Below the pieces are notes generated by a model, which searched no databases, was not told where the DNA came from, and saw nothing but the letters and a program-made list of their open reading frames with translations. A stretch of DNA of 64,000 bases from an uncultured Pelagibacteraceae bacterium (GTDB taxonomy: Bacteria > Pseudomonadota > Alphaproteobacteria > Pelagibacterales > Pelagibacteraceae): the NCBI GenBank assembly GCA_902605035.1, contig CACLBB010000001.1, positions 1-64,000 of the forward strand, written 5' to 3'. Of the stretch, positions 51,329-58,108 are shown one piece after another (the stretch's first letter is position 1; the number at the start of each line of letters is the position of its first letter). A program made the position numbers and the translations under genes.

Positions 51329-51356
51329 TTGACAAAAAAAATAAATAATATATTAT
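51329..51356 (+). promoter_or_regulatory. Promoter of the tyrosine recombinase gene
   Basis: A consensus TTGACA at 51329-51334 and TATTAT at 51351-51356 are separated by 16 bases. The predicted start falls near 51363, inside the left arm of the palindrome, giving a leader of about 22 bases with no Shine-Dalgarno match. The -10 box overlaps the outer edge of the palindrome. Confidence 0.6.
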
Positions 51357-51383
51357 TTCCGATAATTAATGGTTATCGGAAAT
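51355..51383. repeat. Perfect 11-7-11 inverted repeat, candidate recombinase core site/operator
   Basis: ATTTCCGATAA (51355-51365) and its exact complement TTATCGGAAAT (51373-51383) flank a 7-base spacer TTAATGG. The right arm ends one base before the recombinase ATG. The layout matches tyrosine-recombinase core sites: two inverted recombinase-binding arms around a 6-8 base crossover region. The right arm shares TTAT and AAAT with the XerD half of dif (TTATGTTAAAT). It could equally be an autoregulatory operator; both functions could coincide. Confidence 0.7.
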
Positions 51384-51384
51384 T

Positions 51385-52299
51385 ATGAGTGATTTAACAA
51401 CTGAAGTAAAAAAATTAGAAATTGAGACTTTAGACAATTTAAAATTATCTAAAGCAAAAAATACATTAAGAGCTTATAGATCTGACTTTAACGATTTTGC
51501 TTTGTTCTGCACAAAAAATAATTTGAAAAGCCTCCCAAGTGATCCTAAAATTGTTTCAATATATCTTACTCATTTATCTAAAAACTCAAAATTTAGTACT
51601 CTGAAGCGAAGATTGGCATCGATAAATATGATGCATAAGTATAAAGGTCATTACTTAGATACCAAGCATCCAATAATAGTTGAGAATTTGATTGGGATTA
51701 AGAGGCAAATAGGAGTATATCAAAAAGCTAAAAAACCATTATTATTCAATGACATAAAAACGATAATTAAGAAAATTGATCAATCCCCAGGAAATATAAG
51801 CAAAAAACAGAGAGATAAAGCTTTAATATTAGTTGGTTTTGCAGGAGGTTTTAGAAGGTCAGAACTTGTATCAATCAATAAACAAGATGTTGAATTTGTT
51901 AAAGAAGGGGTAAAAATATTTGTTAAAAAATCAAAATCAGACCAATCAGGTGAAGGAATGACTAAAGCTATTCCCTCTTTTAAATACAAAGAATATTGTC
52001 CTGTAGAAAACCTAAGATTATGGATGTTTGAAAATAGAAATGATCGAATATTTGCTATTTCTGACAAGAACGTTGCTCTAATAATTAAAAAATATGCTCT
52101 TCAAGCTGGATTTGATGATAAAAAATACGCTGCTCACAGTTTAAGATCTGGATTTGCTACAACAACAGCTGAAAATGGAGCTAGTGAAAGAAATATAATG
52201 GCTATGACTGGTCATAAATCTGTAGAAATGGTTAGACGATATATTAAAGAAGCTGATTTATTTAAAAATAATGCTTTAAACAAAATTTTAAACAAATGA
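51385..52299 (+). CDS. Tyrosine recombinase/integrase
   Basis: This 304-residue site-specific recombinase has an N-terminal SAM-like core-binding domain (about 1-115) and a catalytic domain with all six key residues: R157 (GGFRRSEL), K182 or K183 (VKKSKSDQ), H251 and R254 (HSLRSG), H277 (TGHKS) and Y286 (RRYIKEA). It is complete and presumably active. No tRNA gene or phage structural gene is adjacent. A perfect 11-7-11 palindrome abuts its start. The genes after it are surface-polysaccharide genes, suggesting it belongs to a variable region. Confidence 0.93.
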   Translation: MSDLTTEVKKLEIETLDNLKLSKAKNTLRAYRSDFNDFALFCTKNNLKSLPSDPKIVSIYLTHLSKNSKFSTLKRRLASINMMHKYKGHYLDTKHPIIVENLIGIKRQIGVYQKAKKPLLFNDIKTIIKKIDQSPGNISKKQRDKALILVGFAGGFRRSELVSINKQDVEFVKEGVKIFVKKSKSDQSGEGMTKAIPSFKYKEYCPVENLRLWMFENRNDRIFAISDKNVALIIKKYALQAGFDDKKYAAHSLRSGFATTTAENGASERNIMAMTGHKSVEMVRRYIKEADLFKNNALNKILNK

Positions 52300-52317
52300 A
52301 TTAAATAGAAATAAATT

Positions 52318-53190
52318 ATGAAGAGTATATTAAATAAGATTTCAATAGTTTTAGTTAGTTATAAAAGTTCATTTAAACTAAAAAAATTTGTACAAAAAAT
52401 ACCAAACGAAACTAAGATTTTTATTATTGACAATTCTAAAGATTATTCATTAAAAAAAATATTTAAAAGAAAAAAAAACGTAAAAATTTATTTTAAAAAA
52501 AATGAGGGATATGGATCATCAATAAACTTTGCATCTAAAATAATTAAAACACCATATTTTTTAGTGGTACAACCTGATGTAACAGGAATTAAAAGAATCT
52601 CTTTAATTAGATTTTACAAATATGCGAAAAAATTAAAAAATAAATTTTCAGTCATTGGTCCCCACTTTATAAATGCTTCTAAAAGCGGACATTTCCAGAC
52701 AAGTTTAAAATTCAAAATAAAGGAGATTCATAATGTTCATGGATCAATAATGTTTTTTAACAAAAAAATATTTAATATAAATAAAGGTTTCGATAAAAAT
52801 ATTTTCTTATATTGGGAAGAGACAGATTATAGTAAAAGAGCTAGTAAAAATGGTTATAAAGCATATCAATTAAATATAGTCAAAGTTAAACACGAAAAAG
52901 GTAAAGCTGTAAAAACTAGAAATCTCAAGGATACAAAAAAATTACAAAATCTTTATACTTGGCACTTTATATGGTCAAAATTTTACTATTTTGATAAGCA
53001 TTATGGAAAATTTTTATCTTTAATTTATTTTACCCCAATATTGATGAGAATTTTATTCAGAATACTCATTTATAAGTTGATCAAAAGTAATAAACTAACA
53101 AAGTATTATTTTAGATTGGATGGTTTAATAAGCTCAATTTTAAATAAAAAATCATCTATGAGACTCGAAAAAATATCTATAGACTCATAA
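52318..53190 (+). CDS. Glycosyltransferase family 2
   Basis: The 290-residue protein has a GT-A fold start (ISIVLVSYKSSFKLKKFV) and FIIDNSKD, with FLVVQPDV in the DxD-like position. FLYWEETDYSKRASKNGYKAY resembles the EDxDxxxR block of rhamnosyltransferase-like GT2 enzymes. The C-terminal hydrophobic stretch (LSLIYFTPILMRILFRILIY) suggests membrane association. It probably adds a sugar to a surface glycan. It follows the recombinase by 18 bases and overlaps the convergent methyltransferase gene by six. Confidence 0.85.
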   Translation: MKSILNKISIVLVSYKSSFKLKKFVQKIPNETKIFIIDNSKDYSLKKIFKRKKNVKIYFKKNEGYGSSINFASKIIKTPYFLVVQPDVTGIKRISLIRFYKYAKKLKNKFSVIGPHFINASKSGHFQTSLKFKIKEIHNVHGSIMFFNKKIFNINKGFDKNIFLYWEETDYSKRASKNGYKAYQLNIVKVKHEKGKAVKTRNLKDTKKLQNLYTWHFIWSKFYYFDKHYGKFLSLIYFTPILMRILFRILIYKLIKSNKLTKYYFRLDGLISSILNKKSSMRLEKISIDS

Positions 53191-53754
53191 TATTTGGCTT
53201 AATAATAATTGATTTTCTGTTTCCAGTAATACTTTAAACCCTTTTTCTTTTAAAAAATCTGCAGAATATAAGGTTTTTGCACCTTTATCATCTAATAAGA
53301 CTAAAGAATTTTTATGAAGTTTATTAATAACGGCTTTTGTCTCTTTAAGTTGATGTTGTGAAGCAAGCTCAGCATCATGACCATCAAATGAGTCTAAATA
53401 TAAAAGATCTATCTTTTTATGAAAATCTTGAAGAAATACAATGCTATCCTTTATGTAAAAATATACGTTATTTTTGTATTTTTTTGTAAAATCTTTAGCA
53501 TTTTTAATATTCATCTCAGATATATCACAACTGTGAAGCTCTCCATCTATGAAATGTGCAAATTCTGAAAATATTAGTGTGCTCATTCCATCTTTCCAAT
53601 TGAACTTCTTAAAAAAAATAAACTTGCTTTTTCCTCGTGCAGTGCCTGTTTCAACAATTATTTTTGATCTCCTAATATTTGCTATTTTTAAAGTTTTTTC
53701 AAAAAGCTCAAATCGAATATTTTTTTTATGATTATATTTATTTATGAAGTTCAT
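53185..53754 (-). CDS. Class I SAM-dependent methyltransferase
   Basis: The 189-residue protein has a Rossmann-like methyltransferase core: IIVETGTARGKSKF (motif I), GELHSCDISEMNIKNAKDF (motif II) and IDLLYLDSFDGHDAELASQ (motif IV). It resembles the Methyltransf_24 family found in polysaccharide clusters. The substrate is probably a sugar or sugar-linked acceptor, inferred from context. It overlaps the GT9-like gene by 17 bases on the same strand. Confidence 0.78.
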   Translation of the reverse strand: MNFINKYNHKKNIRFELFEKTLKIANIRRSKIIVETGTARGKSKFIFFKKFNWKDGMSTLIFSEFAHFIDGELHSCDISEMNIKNAKDFTKKYKNNVYFYIKDSIVFLQDFHKKIDLLYLDSFDGHDAELASQHQLKETKAVINKLHKNSLVLLDDKGAKTLYSADFLKEKGFKVLLETENQLLLSQIL

Positions 53755-54769
53755 GATTTAAAATGATTTCTTCTGATATAGAAGAAAATTCTTTTCTGAA
53801 GATAGATTTATAATGACTCATATGTTTAGTAATTCTGCTATAATGATCTAATTTCTCTTCTTCAATAATATCATATATATACAAACCATAATTGAACGCG
53901 ATATGAGTAAATGCACCGTGACAAGAAATAAATAATCTAGATATGGAAATTAATTCAATCATTCTAAACAAATCTAATTTGTCAATTAAATAAATGTAAC
54001 CACTTTTGATTTTAATACGATATAAATTATCATTTACTAATTCTGAAACTTCTTTTAGCTGCTTAAATATACTAGTTTCGATTACTCCAGTTGTAATTAT
54101 CATTTCATAGTTGCTAATATCATATATATTATTAGCAAAATTTAAAATTCCCTCTTTATTAATCGTAATATTCGTCAATTTTTTTGCCTGTTTATACTCA
54201 ATTTGATATTCATCTGTATTCCATTTCTCATCAAGGTGAAGCAAAATCTTTTTCTTAGACTTATCTAAAAAGTTAATAAAATTATTTTTTTTAGTAAGAT
54301 TATTGTTGGTAATCTTGTCATCTTTATTAATATTTAATCCAAAACATTTAGCATTAAGTTCTAAGATTTCATACATACTGTCTTTTACGGTATCATTATC
54401 CAAAAAAACATTATTATAAAATATCTTAATTATCTTGAATTGAAAATTTTTTGAAACATTAAATATTTTTTCTTTTGAATTTAAAAAAATACTAAAAATT
54501 ATTGATCTATTCTTTTTATCAGATACGATAATTCTATCAAATTTTTCTTTTCTAAGAAGAAGAAAAAATTTTAATCTTTCAAGCAGATTTTTTCTCTTAA
54601 ACAAAAAGTAACCATCTATGTAATCAATTTGTTTAATTAATTCTATGTTTTTTTTAGAACAAACGATAAAAATTTTTGAATTTGCGTCTTCTCTTTTAAT
54701 AGCCTTTATTAAAGGAGCTGTGATAAAAAAATCTCCAATACGGTCATTCCTAAAGATTAAATATTTCAT
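53738..54769 (-). CDS. Glycosyltransferase family 9-like protein
   Basis: The 343-residue protein begins KYLIFRNDRIGDFFITAPLIKAIKR, the clear N-terminal signature of GT9 ADP-heptose:LPS heptosyltransferase-like enzymes. The C-terminal half is divergent, but LISISRLFISCHGAFTHIAFNYGL occupies the place of the nucleotide-sugar-binding SxxTGxxHLA loop. An LPS-core or O-chain role is likely; the donor sugar is unknown. Confidence 0.8.
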   Translation of the reverse strand: MKYLIFRNDRIGDFFITAPLIKAIKREDANSKIFIVCSKKNIELIKQIDYIDGYFLFKRKNLLERLKFFLLLRKEKFDRIIVSDKKNRSIIFSIFLNSKEKIFNVSKNFQFKIIKIFYNNVFLDNDTVKDSMYEILELNAKCFGLNINKDDKITNNNLTKKNNFINFLDKSKKKILLHLDEKWNTDEYQIEYKQAKKLTNITINKEGILNFANNIYDISNYEMIITTGVIETSIFKQLKEVSELVNDNLYRIKIKSGYIYLIDKLDLFRMIELISISRLFISCHGAFTHIAFNYGLYIYDIIEEEKLDHYSRITKHMSHYKSIFRKEFSSISEEIILNHELHK

Positions 54770-54775
54770 TTAATT

Positions 54776-55972
54776 TTAGTTATTCTTTATGAATTTAACA
54801 AATTGTTCCTTTATATAATTAATGTCTTTATCAATTAAACCATGATGACAACCTATTAATATTCCATTTTTCATTATATTATTGCTGTTTACTTCTGCAT
54901 TTTTTACTTTTTTGTACTTTCTTTTTTTCATTATTGGTTGTCTTAAGATATTGCCAGTAAATATTGTTCTTGTTTGTACGCCTTTTTTTTCAAGAAATAT
55001 TTGTAGTTTTTGTCTGTTGATTTTGGAGTTTTTTTTTAAGATTACTGGATATGCCAGCCAAGGTGTTTTAAGACCTTTAATTTGTTCAGGCAAATCAAAT
55101 AGCTCAGGAAATCCCGCAAAGAAACTTTTTAAAGTTTCAAAATTTTTTAATCTTGTTGTAATATTTTTTGGTAATTTTTTAAATTGTTCTAAAGCAAAAG
55201 CTGCAGAAATTTCTGAAGGTAAGAAGTTGTAACCTACGTCATGAAAAATATATTTACCATCATAAGGAACTCCATCAACCTTAACATTAAATCTTGCCTT
55301 AATACCTTCAGACTCATTAAAAACTGCTGAGGACCTACCCCATCCTCTTAATAACTTGGCTTTATCATAGCTCTTTTTGTCGTTAAAACAAACCATTCCT
55401 CCTGAACCTGCTCCAGTTATGATATGAGAAGCATACATACTATTTGTGGTTACATCTGAATACTTCCCAAAGTTTTTATTATCAACTCTATATCCTAGTG
55501 TGTCAGCAGAATCTTCAATAATTTTTAGTTTAAATTTTTTTGCAATTTTATGAATAATTTTCCAATTAGGTACGTTACCTATTAAATTAGGTATCATTAT
55601 TGCTTTAGTTTTTTTATTAATAGCTTTGAGGATTTGATCAGTTCTTGCTACAAAGGAATTTTTTTCAACATCTATAAAATGTGGAACTAACCCTAGTTGA
55701 TACATTGGAGCAATTGTAGTTGAAAAAGTAAGTGTTGGAGTTATTATTTCACTTCCTTTTTTTAGATTTAAAGATGCTAATGCTAGCAAATTTGCTGATG
55801 ATCCAGAGTTGACCATTAATCCATACTTTTTACCAAAGGATTTTGCAATTTTTTTTTCAAGTTCTTTAACAGAGGGTCCGTCTATTAATGCAAAAGACTT
55901 ATTCTTTAAAACATTTATGGAAGCTTGAATCTCTTTTTTATCATAAACAGCTTTTCCGTAAAAAATTTTCAT
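54776..55972 (-). CDS. DegT/RfbH-like sugar 3-dehydrase (His in place of PLP lysine)
   Basis: This is an aspartate-aminotransferase-fold, PLP-dependent sugar enzyme with NSGSSANLLAL, IIEDSADTLGY and a C-terminal GNILRQPIMKKRKYK block close to RfbH. The residue that is the Schiff-base lysine in DegT aminotransferases is H183 (YASHIITGAGSGG), as in the 3-dehydrases RfbH/DdhC and ColD. The RfbH region bearing iron-sulfur cysteines aligns with SSAVFNESEGIKARF, which has none. It probably deoxygenates a nucleotide 4-keto-6-deoxysugar at C3. Length 398. Confidence 0.82.
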   Translation of the reverse strand: MKIFYGKAVYDKKEIQASINVLKNKSFALIDGPSVKELEKKIAKSFGKKYGLMVNSGSSANLLALASLNLKKGSEIITPTLTFSTTIAPMYQLGLVPHFIDVEKNSFVARTDQILKAINKKTKAIMIPNLIGNVPNWKIIHKIAKKFKLKIIEDSADTLGYRVDNKNFGKYSDVTTNSMYASHIITGAGSGGMVCFNDKKSYDKAKLLRGWGRSSAVFNESEGIKARFNVKVDGVPYDGKYIFHDVGYNFLPSEISAAFALEQFKKLPKNITTRLKNFETLKSFFAGFPELFDLPEQIKGLKTPWLAYPVILKKNSKINRQKLQIFLEKKGVQTRTIFTGNILRQPIMKKRKYKKVKNAEVNSNNIMKNGILIGCHHGLIDKDINYIKEQFVKFIKNN

Positions 55973-55975
55973 AAA

Positions 55976-58108
55976 TTATCTCTCCCAAAAAAAGTTCTTT
56001 TTATTTGAAAGGCCTAGTGATTTATTGATAATAAACTCTGCTACTAGATTAGAATTAAAGTACTTCATATATTTGTTTTTTCCATTTTTAGCAATAGTTT
56101 TTCTGAGTTTATCATCATTTGCGATCCTTAAAATTTTTTCAGATAAATCGTTTGTGTTCTTGTAGAATACCATTTCTTTATCATTAAAAAAATTTTTATA
56201 CTGCGTCTTTTCGTCAATTAAACAAACTAAACCATTGCCAATTATTTGTGTAATTCTATCGCTACTATAATATTTGATTGCTTCGCCTCTGCTTAGGTTT
56301 AGACCCATTTTAGCATTTGCTATTGTTTTAAAATAATGATCAGCCCAAATAGGCTGAATATTGTTTAAACCATAAATGTCAAATTTAACATCCGGGGTAA
56401 TATTCATTAGATTATTAACAAAGTTAATTCTGTCATCAATTTTACCTGATTTTAAAACTCCTCTATGAACTCCATGACTAAGTGCAAAAAAAACATCAAC
56501 ATTACATGATTTATTATAATTATTTAAAATTTCAAAAGATTTATCGCTTGGATTAGGTATGTAATGAATATCTTTATCTTTTGGTAAAAAATCTAAAACT
56601 GTTGGACTAGTTGTTAAAAAACTAGAGTCAACTACATTGATTTTATCTAAAATCCGTTCTTTATTTCTGTTAAAATCTGGACCTTTTTTATTTAATGGAT
56701 CTAAAAACCACTGGCTTATTTTAACTTTTGGATAATCTTCTTTAAGTTCCTGTATTTGATCTGCAGATATTAAGTCTGCGTGACCCATTACTATAAGATC
56801 TGGTTTGTAATTATAACAAGTTTTTTTTAATTTATCGTTTAAGGTTTTTGCACCTCTTAAGTCACTTAGTGATCTATAATATTTCTGAATATCTCTATCA
56901 CTAAAACCTAGAACACTATGTCCTAATCGAATAAATCCATTATTTATTCTTCGACCTGTATTAAAAAACAATCTTCCATCTAATCTTTCATTAAAATTCG
57001 TAATATGTAAAATTCTTAGGTTATTAATGTTTTTTTTGGTAAAAAAATTATTAGTGTTAACTAGTTTCTCTGACCTGTAGTCATCAATAGTTTTGGTTAC
57101 AAACTCATGTGTTAAACTAAAGTTTTTAACAGACAAACTTTGTAATTTTTTTCTAAGTTTAAGATTATTAATTAGTCTGTTAATATTTTTTTCTAAATTT
57201 TTAACTGTTAGATTATTTAATATTTTTGCGTTTGTTACCGTTTCAGGCAATCCGCCCTTATTTGTTATTATTACAGCGCAACCATTAGCAGATGCCTCTA
57301 AACTAGTTCTTCCAAATGGCTCCTCCCATCTTGAACATGCTACGGCTATACTAGTTTTTTTAAAAATATTAATTACTTCACCATGTTTTTTAAATCCTAA
57401 AATATCAGCATTTTTATGTGAAAGTTTGATTTTTTCTCTTTTTTCATCTCCAATAATTTTTGCCTTCCAAGTCGGATTTTTGTTTAAAACTTTTATAATT
57501 GCCTTTGAAAAAATGTCATAACCCTTAGCCTTATTTAGTTTTCCAACAAAAGTAATCCATTTTTCTTTTTTATTAAGTAAAGATATAGATCCTTTTTTAG
57601 CTGATTGATAAAAAACTGATAATTTATTACTGTTAACAAATTTGTTTTCTAGTCCCTCTAAAAATCTTTTTTTTGACCAATTACTATTGAAAATAATCTT
57701 GTAACATTTTTTTAATAGAAATTTCCTATCACTAATTGATTTCGAACCATCCATAGAGAGAGGATCATTATGAAAGTATAAAGATATAATTCTCTTTTCT
57801 AATTTATTTGAAATAATTTTTACATAACTTGGTCTATTATGAATTTCAATTATCGATGATTTTTTTTCATTTTCTATTTTAATAAATTTATTTACATAAT
57901 TTTTCGTTTGACTAGTTAACGGAATATTAAGTAAGGATATATTTTGATACTTAATAGGAAACTTTTTTTTTAAACTGGTACTTCCATAAACTGTTATTTT
58001 ATTTCTAAATATACTGTTTCTGCTTGTTTCAAAAACGAACAGTGAAACAGCACCAGGATAATTTGGTGAAAAGTTTTCTTTGTACGGTAGTAATACTGAA
58101 ATTTTCAT
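55976..58108 (-). CDS. Tandem two-domain glycosyltransferase
   Basis: The 710-residue protein contains two GT-B units. Residues about 1-345 look like a GT4 enzyme, with WITFVGKLNKAKGYDIF and the EPFGRTSLEASANGCAVIITNKGGLPE block. Residues about 370-700 look like a CgeB-type glycosyltransferase, with LRILHITNFNERLDGRLFFNTGRRINNGF, DLIVMGHADLIS and a C-terminal LNLSRGEAIKYYSSDRITQIIGNG. It may add two sugars in sequence, or be processive. It overlaps the GIY-YIG gene by four bases. Confidence 0.82.
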   Translation of the reverse strand: MKISVLLPYKENFSPNYPGAVSLFVFETSRNSIFRNKITVYGSTSLKKKFPIKYQNISLLNIPLTSQTKNYVNKFIKIENEKKSSIIEIHNRPSYVKIISNKLEKRIISLYFHNDPLSMDGSKSISDRKFLLKKCYKIIFNSNWSKKRFLEGLENKFVNSNKLSVFYQSAKKGSISLLNKKEKWITFVGKLNKAKGYDIFSKAIIKVLNKNPTWKAKIIGDEKREKIKLSHKNADILGFKKHGEVINIFKKTSIAVACSRWEEPFGRTSLEASANGCAVIITNKGGLPETVTNAKILNNLTVKNLEKNINRLINNLKLRKKLQSLSVKNFSLTHEFVTKTIDDYRSEKLVNTNNFFTKKNINNLRILHITNFNERLDGRLFFNTGRRINNGFIRLGHSVLGFSDRDIQKYYRSLSDLRGAKTLNDKLKKTCYNYKPDLIVMGHADLISADQIQELKEDYPKVKISQWFLDPLNKKGPDFNRNKERILDKINVVDSSFLTTSPTVLDFLPKDKDIHYIPNPSDKSFEILNNYNKSCNVDVFFALSHGVHRGVLKSGKIDDRINFVNNLMNITPDVKFDIYGLNNIQPIWADHYFKTIANAKMGLNLSRGEAIKYYSSDRITQIIGNGLVCLIDEKTQYKNFFNDKEMVFYKNTNDLSEKILRIANDDKLRKTIAKNGKNKYMKYFNSNLVAEFIINKSLGLSNKKNFFWER

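Follow-up and report, generated by a model that had tools for sequence, protein, structure and literature searches.

The stretch of DNA analysed here, a window of 64 kb from the 1.0-Mb genome of a member of the SAR11 group, the most abundant bacteria in the ocean, holds a palindrome that abuts the gene for a Cre/Xer-type tyrosine recombinase (Table 1). As an earlier note on this sequence had described, two 11-base arms at 51355-51383 are exact inverted copies of each other around the spacer TTAATGG, and the palindrome ends one base ahead of the recombinase ATG at 51385, which opens an intact reading frame of 304 amino acids. It was also said to overlap a -10 box, which the sequence confirms: the promoter hexamers are TTGACA (51329-51334) and TATTAT (51351-51356), the latter extending into the left arm, and a comparable TTGACA...TATATT precedes the site in relatives. 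Among the immediate neighbours, which vary between genera, the recombinase itself and one glycosyltransferase gene of the following island are the exceptions. This glycosyltransferase gene recurs in the glycan-biosynthesis island of relatives (window 52318-58108), while most other neighbours change.

Table 1. Features of the recombinase locus, in window coordinates.
Feature	Position	Strand	Basis
Candidate dif site, type A (working name difP)	51355-51383	+	Perfect 11-7-11 inverted repeat, unique in the genome, kept in relatives, at the skew maximum in closed relatives
Left arm ATTTCCGATAA, predicted recombinase-binding	51355-51365	+	Sequence; core TTCCGATAA conserved
Spacer TTAATGG, asymmetric, 7 bp, putative strand-exchange region	51366-51372	+	Same spacer in 48 of 50 SAR11 type A sites from named genomes
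Right arm TTATCGGAAAT, predicted recombinase-binding	51373-51383	+	Sequence; conserved
Sigma-70-like promoter TTGACA-16-TATTAT, -10 overlapping the left arm	51329-51356	+	Matches the consensus at 11 of 12 positions
Cre/Xer-type tyrosine recombinase, 304 aa (working name XerP)	51385-52299	+	Pfam domains, catalytic residues, fold
Variable island: glycosyltransferases, methyltransferase, aminotransferase-like	52318-58108		Open reading frames, Pfam; neighbours mostly unshared among relatives
Interval from site to skew maximum (window maximum 53132, 1.8 kb past the site)	51369-53132		Skew mostly positive before, mostly negative after

By itself, a perfect 11-bp inverted repeat is unremarkable in this window, which contains two with spacers of 4-10 bases; shuffled windows contain 1.2 of these on average, and 0.27 with a spacer of exactly 7. 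A chance origin, under which about one such repeat is expected per window, was rejected because the arms and spacer are conserved beside orthologous recombinases and because of the genomic position of the site, so that the case depends on conservation instead of on the repeat. A transcription terminator was also considered; the palindrome scores as one on the minus strand only, with the -10 region supplying the run of T, and this reading was dropped because spacer and position are kept in relatives. No second full copy had been noticed in the window, and the 29-bp palindrome is in fact found once in the whole genome, even with up to three mismatches allowed.

The recombinase combines a catalytic Phage_integrase domain with an N-terminal SAM-like domain (SAM_1). 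Models for XerA, XerD, XerC and XerS all match it far under their cut-offs, with 84.7 bits against 220 for the XerA equivalog, 84 against 329.6 for XerD and 57.7 against 267 for the XerS equivalog. The catalytic residues R157/R158, K184, H251, R254, H277 and Y286 are invariant in an alignment of 21 homologues that includes relatives with 37-41% identity, from Veillonellaceae among other groups. The best fold match of the predicted structure (mean pLDDT 87) is Cre (E 3.5e-12, TM about 0.75), with XerH (TM 0.60) and XerA behind, and a profile search against solved structures places Cre first over the whole protein and XerD a close second over the catalytic domain.

The site directly precedes the recombinase ATG in orthologues down to about 59-67% identity, with a gap of 2-7 bp in most SAR11 loci, and there is essentially one site per SAR11 genome. 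Conservation upstream of orthologous recombinases, proposed earlier as a check, thus extends to the arms together with the spacer, beyond an operator half. The arm length of 11 bases holds for the perfect repeat in the window but not for the group as a whole: in what is here called type A the conserved arm is 9 bp, TTCCGATAA, whereas type B, found in most other SAR11 genomes, reads TTACTAnnGATAA-TTAATKG-TTATCAnTAGTAA and has arms of 13-14 bp. A search that put no constraint on the spacer collected 50 SAR11 type A sites from named genomes, and 48 of them have exactly TTAATGG. The two types differ in the outer arm bases, which have changed in concert on both sides, and share the inner GATAA/TTATC and the spacer. 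Site types are matched to recombinase subtypes; type B recombinases share about 12 extra residues, inserted into the catalytic domain, and in a tree the SAR11 recombinases form one clade (100/99) and eight of the nine type B recombinases another (99/98). Since both types are present within the same genera, the pattern fits a history in which gene and site would have been swapped between lineages as one cassette; ancient coexistence of types A and B is a possible alternative. The idea that the site might be exclusive to SAR11 was ruled out, as identical arms with other spacers are found in many phyla.

A location at the terminus, another of the checks suggested earlier, was found in closed relatives, where the site lies at the GC-skew maximum and opposite dnaA. 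The cumulative maximum is 1062, 559, 2371, 1515 and 2096 bp from the site in the five closed relatives examined, the skew covering one complete genome (G009) and 400-kb stretches of the four others. The complete genome has its skew maximum at 493446, its site at 492384 and its minimum at base 48, beside dnaA. The distance from site to dnaA amounts to 0.42-0.49 of the genome length in 11 of 11 closed genomes, for which P is about 2e-9 assuming uniform independent positions, although these genomes share ancestry and are not independent. Across five genomes the Escherichia coli KOPS motif GGGNAGGG is oriented toward the site in a ratio of 35:2, and RGAGYAGG in a ratio of 192:38. Similar octamers have a background skew of about 0.65, part of the motif skews being overall strand composition, and the biases are therefore regarded as excesses and not as proof. 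A single site per chromosome at the replication terminus, where GC skew switches, is what a dif module in general is expected to show, and SAR11 agrees with it. Island borders had been named as another place to look, and this guess is partly right too, as the variable glycan island starts right behind the recombinase.

Strong matches to the recombinase (E <=1.9e-88) occur in about 204 SAR11-family genomes, nearly always one each, among 297 genomes of the order that were searched, and in all 11 closed SAR11 genomes; genomes of the sister family match weakly. Dozens of SAR11-family genomes gave no match, for example G032 (99% complete), while no closed SAR11 genome is without the gene. The near-complete assemblies G032, G127, G173, G103 and G120, all without a match, are every one multi-contig, so that loss and an assembly gap look alike. 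The question whether XerC and XerD are also encoded was answered in the negative, with no gene above the XerD cut-off in 23 SAR11 genomes searched, a few of which also encode a more distantly related tyrosine recombinase. Across most of the SAR11 family the recombinase is the sole Xer-like gene. In the sister family all ten genomes searched have an XerCD-type gene above the NF001399 cut-off (313-335 bits), and seven carry another full-length gene of this type (227-249 bits). Judged from these sequences, the simplest history would be that XerC and XerD were lost and that this recombinase stands in their place. FtsK with a gamma domain, the domain that activates XerD in E. coli, was found in 12 of 12 SAR11 genomes.

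The single copy, the kept spacer, the position at the skew maximum and the KOPS-like polarity lead to the reading that the palindrome very probably serves SAR11 as its dif site, acted on by the single recombinase that the neighbouring gene encodes. With equally high confidence, one recombinase and dif would make up a dimer-resolution module in bacteria thought to have none. The earlier proposal of a dif/lox-like core site belonging to the adjacent recombinase is supported by the conservation, the terminus position and the absence of XerC/XerD above cut-off, which, like the anatomy of the site, its single copy and the FtsK gamma domain, are observed; binding, cleavage, activation of the recombinase by FtsK and recombination itself are inferred. 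Homologous recombination between the replicated circular chromosomes can fuse them into a dimer. Septal FtsK, guided by the KOPS-like motifs, would draw the two terminus copies together, two recombinase subunits would occupy both arms of each site, and the enzyme would cut the edges of the spacer via Y286 and swap strands to yield two monomers. The bound recombinase would also repress its own gene; such autorepression is probable because the site overlaps the recombinase promoter.

This overlap, with the palindrome covering part of the -10 hexamer and abutting the ATG, is also what could be expected if the palindrome were purely an operator, serving only repression of the recombinase promoter by the recombinase or by another dimeric regulator. 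An operator, however, has no need of a conserved asymmetric spacer, nor of being located where the skew switches, with polar motifs directed at it, and phages carry the site away from any recombinase gene. We consider a purely regulatory role very improbable, while a double role as operator and recombination site is compatible with the data. A still smaller probability is given to the view that the enzyme is the integrase of an island or mobile element, with the palindrome as its att site and the downstream glycan island as its cargo. The variable island does lie directly downstream of the recombinase and phage-encoded relatives of the enzyme exist, but the site is essentially single copy per genome with no flanking second copy, the gene is near-universal in the SAR11 family and the terminus position is constant.

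Outside SAR11, Veillonellaceae have these arms, around different spacers, close to related recombinases that score about 260-300 bits. No XerC/XerD above cut-off was found in six genomes of Veillonellaceae and related Negativicutes and one Anaerovibrio genome, and local GC skew falls across the site in most loci of these Negativicutes. Going by these sequence features, the TTCCGATAA palindrome is possibly the dif of Negativicutes too. Its loci comprise L211, L217, L220, L240, L252, L272, L310 and L315 in Veillonellaceae and L197, L198, L206 and L238 in Anaerovibrio; Anaerovibrio lipolyticus LB2005 has two copies. On the viral contigs L345, L387 and L388 the start of a recombinase relative is preceded, at 2-3 bp, by TTCCGATAA-N7-TTATCGGAA, a layout like that of SAR11, which may hint at the origin of the cassette. 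Another phage relative, at L478, is preceded by a different palindrome, about 56 bp before position 2689; it reads ATGCACGATAA-TCGGGCG-TTATCGTGCAT, and its arms are likewise 11 bp and its spacer 7 bp.

Sites of both types are also present in viruses. A search of viral contigs gave at least 120 stretches with type A arms and 28 with type B; the type A and B matches listed, together with two further site-bearing contigs, make up a set of 145. Most of the site-bearing contigs among the matches listed encode no recognisable integrase or relative of the recombinase. A large terminase subunit (TerL) like those of pelagiphage isolates is encoded by 102 of the 145, again among the matches listed, and in 100 of these 102, which span several TerL types, the site lies within 1.5 kb of the gene. 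Types A and B stand side by side, 0-11 bp apart, in 27 contigs among these matches. Tandem B and A palindromes beside terminase genes were seen in L318, L340, L377, L402, L409, L438, L449, L450 and L454-L456. The site of L454 falls between terS and terL, near the likely packaging start. Among cultured phages, HTVC035P, HTVC106P, HTVC100P, HTVC024P and Greip have sites at the same terminase spot that exceed the maxima of shuffled sequence, and those of HTVC034P, HTVC203P, HTVC010P and Skadi-4 are weaker or degenerate. At this spot HTVC028P, a phage with its own integrase, has no site, and none was found within the parts read of HTVC027P and HTVC023P. Phage spacers agree within one phage and differ from the host, sharing with it the left half TTAA but not the right half.

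These features make it quite likely that the pelagiphage sites are substrates of the host recombinase. What the enzyme would do there is less certain. The sites could be attP sequences by which the phage integrates at the host dif, in the manner of the integrative mobile elements exploiting Xer (IMEX), which bear a dif mimic and lack an integrase of their own, a combination also seen in the pelagiphage contigs. The scarcity of integrase genes among the matches listed agrees with this, as does a spacer with TTAA in common with the host and a differing right half, which recalls the attP of VGJphi (PMC5357621), and the Legionella IMEX LME-1 provides a precedent (PMC9765430). Against integration stand the mismatch between phage and host spacers and the fact that the SAR11 recombinase gene, an expected neighbour of such a provirus, was found on no viral contig; one pelagiphage TerL type occurs in just 6 of 297 SAR11 genomes, and the sole genome with TerL and dif on one contig has TerL away from dif. 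We regard integration as a possible but doubtful explanation. The alternative, to which we would give about an even chance, is that phage genomes are circularised or resolved to monomers at these sites by the host recombinase, in the way that Cre acts at loxP in P1. The site within 1.5 kb of TerL in 100 of 102 contigs among the matches listed, spacers that match inside a phage and not the host, tandem A and B sites that would suit hosts of either type, and the missing site in the integrase-bearing HTVC028P all point this way. Circularisation or monomerisation is thus favoured over integration, on the strength of the terminase-adjacent position, the host spacer mismatch and the absence of a provirus at dif.

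A provirus at dif was sought in several ways, all within a limited search, and rejected in each. None appeared via the recombinase on viral contigs or via one pelagiphage TerL in 297 genomes, and none via the sites in TerL-positive genomes; the end of the host promoter joined to the left arm gave two matches, both of them phage sites without the host gene. One SAR11 genome, 97% complete, has a pelagiphage-like terminase gene (G052:C1:267499-268710) on its dif contig, 180 kb from dif, which may reflect a provirus integrated at another locus or an assembly error.

In the open-licence literature we found neither a SAR11 dif nor these phage sites described. A survey from 2009 gave Pelagibacter as an example of streamlining able to dispense with dimer resolution, and asked if another recombination system replaces dif/Xer in such species (PMC2731167). 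Contrary to the first of these views, dimer resolution has apparently been kept in SAR11 through a different, Cre-like enzyme, and the module described here is a concrete candidate for the stand-in that the survey had asked about (PMC2731167). Phages related to HTVC010P have been assigned a lytic strategy on the grounds that they lack an integrase (PMC6811365). It seems to us somewhat probable that all these observations belong together: that SAR11 swapped XerCD/dif for a self-linked Cre-like cassette with two specificities, A and B, in the same genera, and that several unrelated pelagiphage lineages, presumed lytic where they lack an integrase, carry the host site or sites by their terminase genes and employ the host enzyme for circularising or integrating their genomes, tandem A and B sites covering both host types. 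The site offers an exact marker of the terminus for SAR11 genomes, the cassette a compact recombinase/site pair that comes in two natural specificities, and the phage sites a testable route by which integrase-less pelagiphages may rely on an enzyme of the host.

Among known systems, Cre/loxP of phage P1 shares with SAR11 a single enzyme, symmetric arms and an asymmetric spacer, and Cre, whose catalytic residues are present in the SAR11 protein, is its best whole-protein match in fold and profile, at about 20% identity. The loxP spacer is 8 bp and the system a phage- or plasmid-borne pair, whereas that of SAR11 is chromosomal and near-universal with a spacer of 7 bp. Cre with loxP at the terminus can stand in for dif in E. 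coli (cited in PMC2731167). The same survey, which listed Pelagibacter as without dif/Xer, reported no evidence of a loxP/Cre-like system in dif/Xer-deficient proteobacteria and a hexamer centre in every proteobacterial dif analysed (PMC2731167). XerCD/dif resembles the SAR11 module in terminus position, the FtsK gamma domain and KOPS-like motifs, but uses two enzymes where SAR11 has one, with no XerC/XerD above cut-off, and a 28-bp site with a 6-bp centre in place of symmetric arms around 7 bp.

The closest parallels in organisation are systems with one recombinase. XerS/difSL of streptococci and lactococci and XerH/difH of Helicobacter and Campylobacter likewise link a single recombinase to its site in the presence of FtsK, and the gene adjoins its site in SAR11 as it does for XerS. 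They differ in a spacer of 11 bp (difSL) or 6-10 bp (difH) and in proteins of about 355 residues (354-362 for XerH-like proteins) against 304, and SAR11 arms are symmetric. With 58 bits against a cut-off of 267, the SAR11 protein is not an XerS orthologue; XerH is a weaker match to it than Cre in profile and fold (TM 0.60 against about 0.75), and the score against archaeal XerA stays below the equivalog level. XerL/dif of the Legionellales is also a single-recombinase system in a group listed as without dif/Xer, with long uninterrupted inverted-repeat arms, a site near the cumulative GC-skew maximum and mimics of the site on mobile elements such as the IMEX LME-1 (PMC9765430). Legionella pneumophila has more than 400 kb between dif and xerL (PMC9765430), whereas site and gene abut in SAR11, and the catalytic tyrosine of Coxiella burnetii XerL, compared here by description alone, is residue 389, which makes XerL longer than the SAR11 protein. 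The SAR11 module would join those of XerS, XerH, XerL and XerA as a further single-recombinase dif system, though one with an enzyme nearer to Cre.
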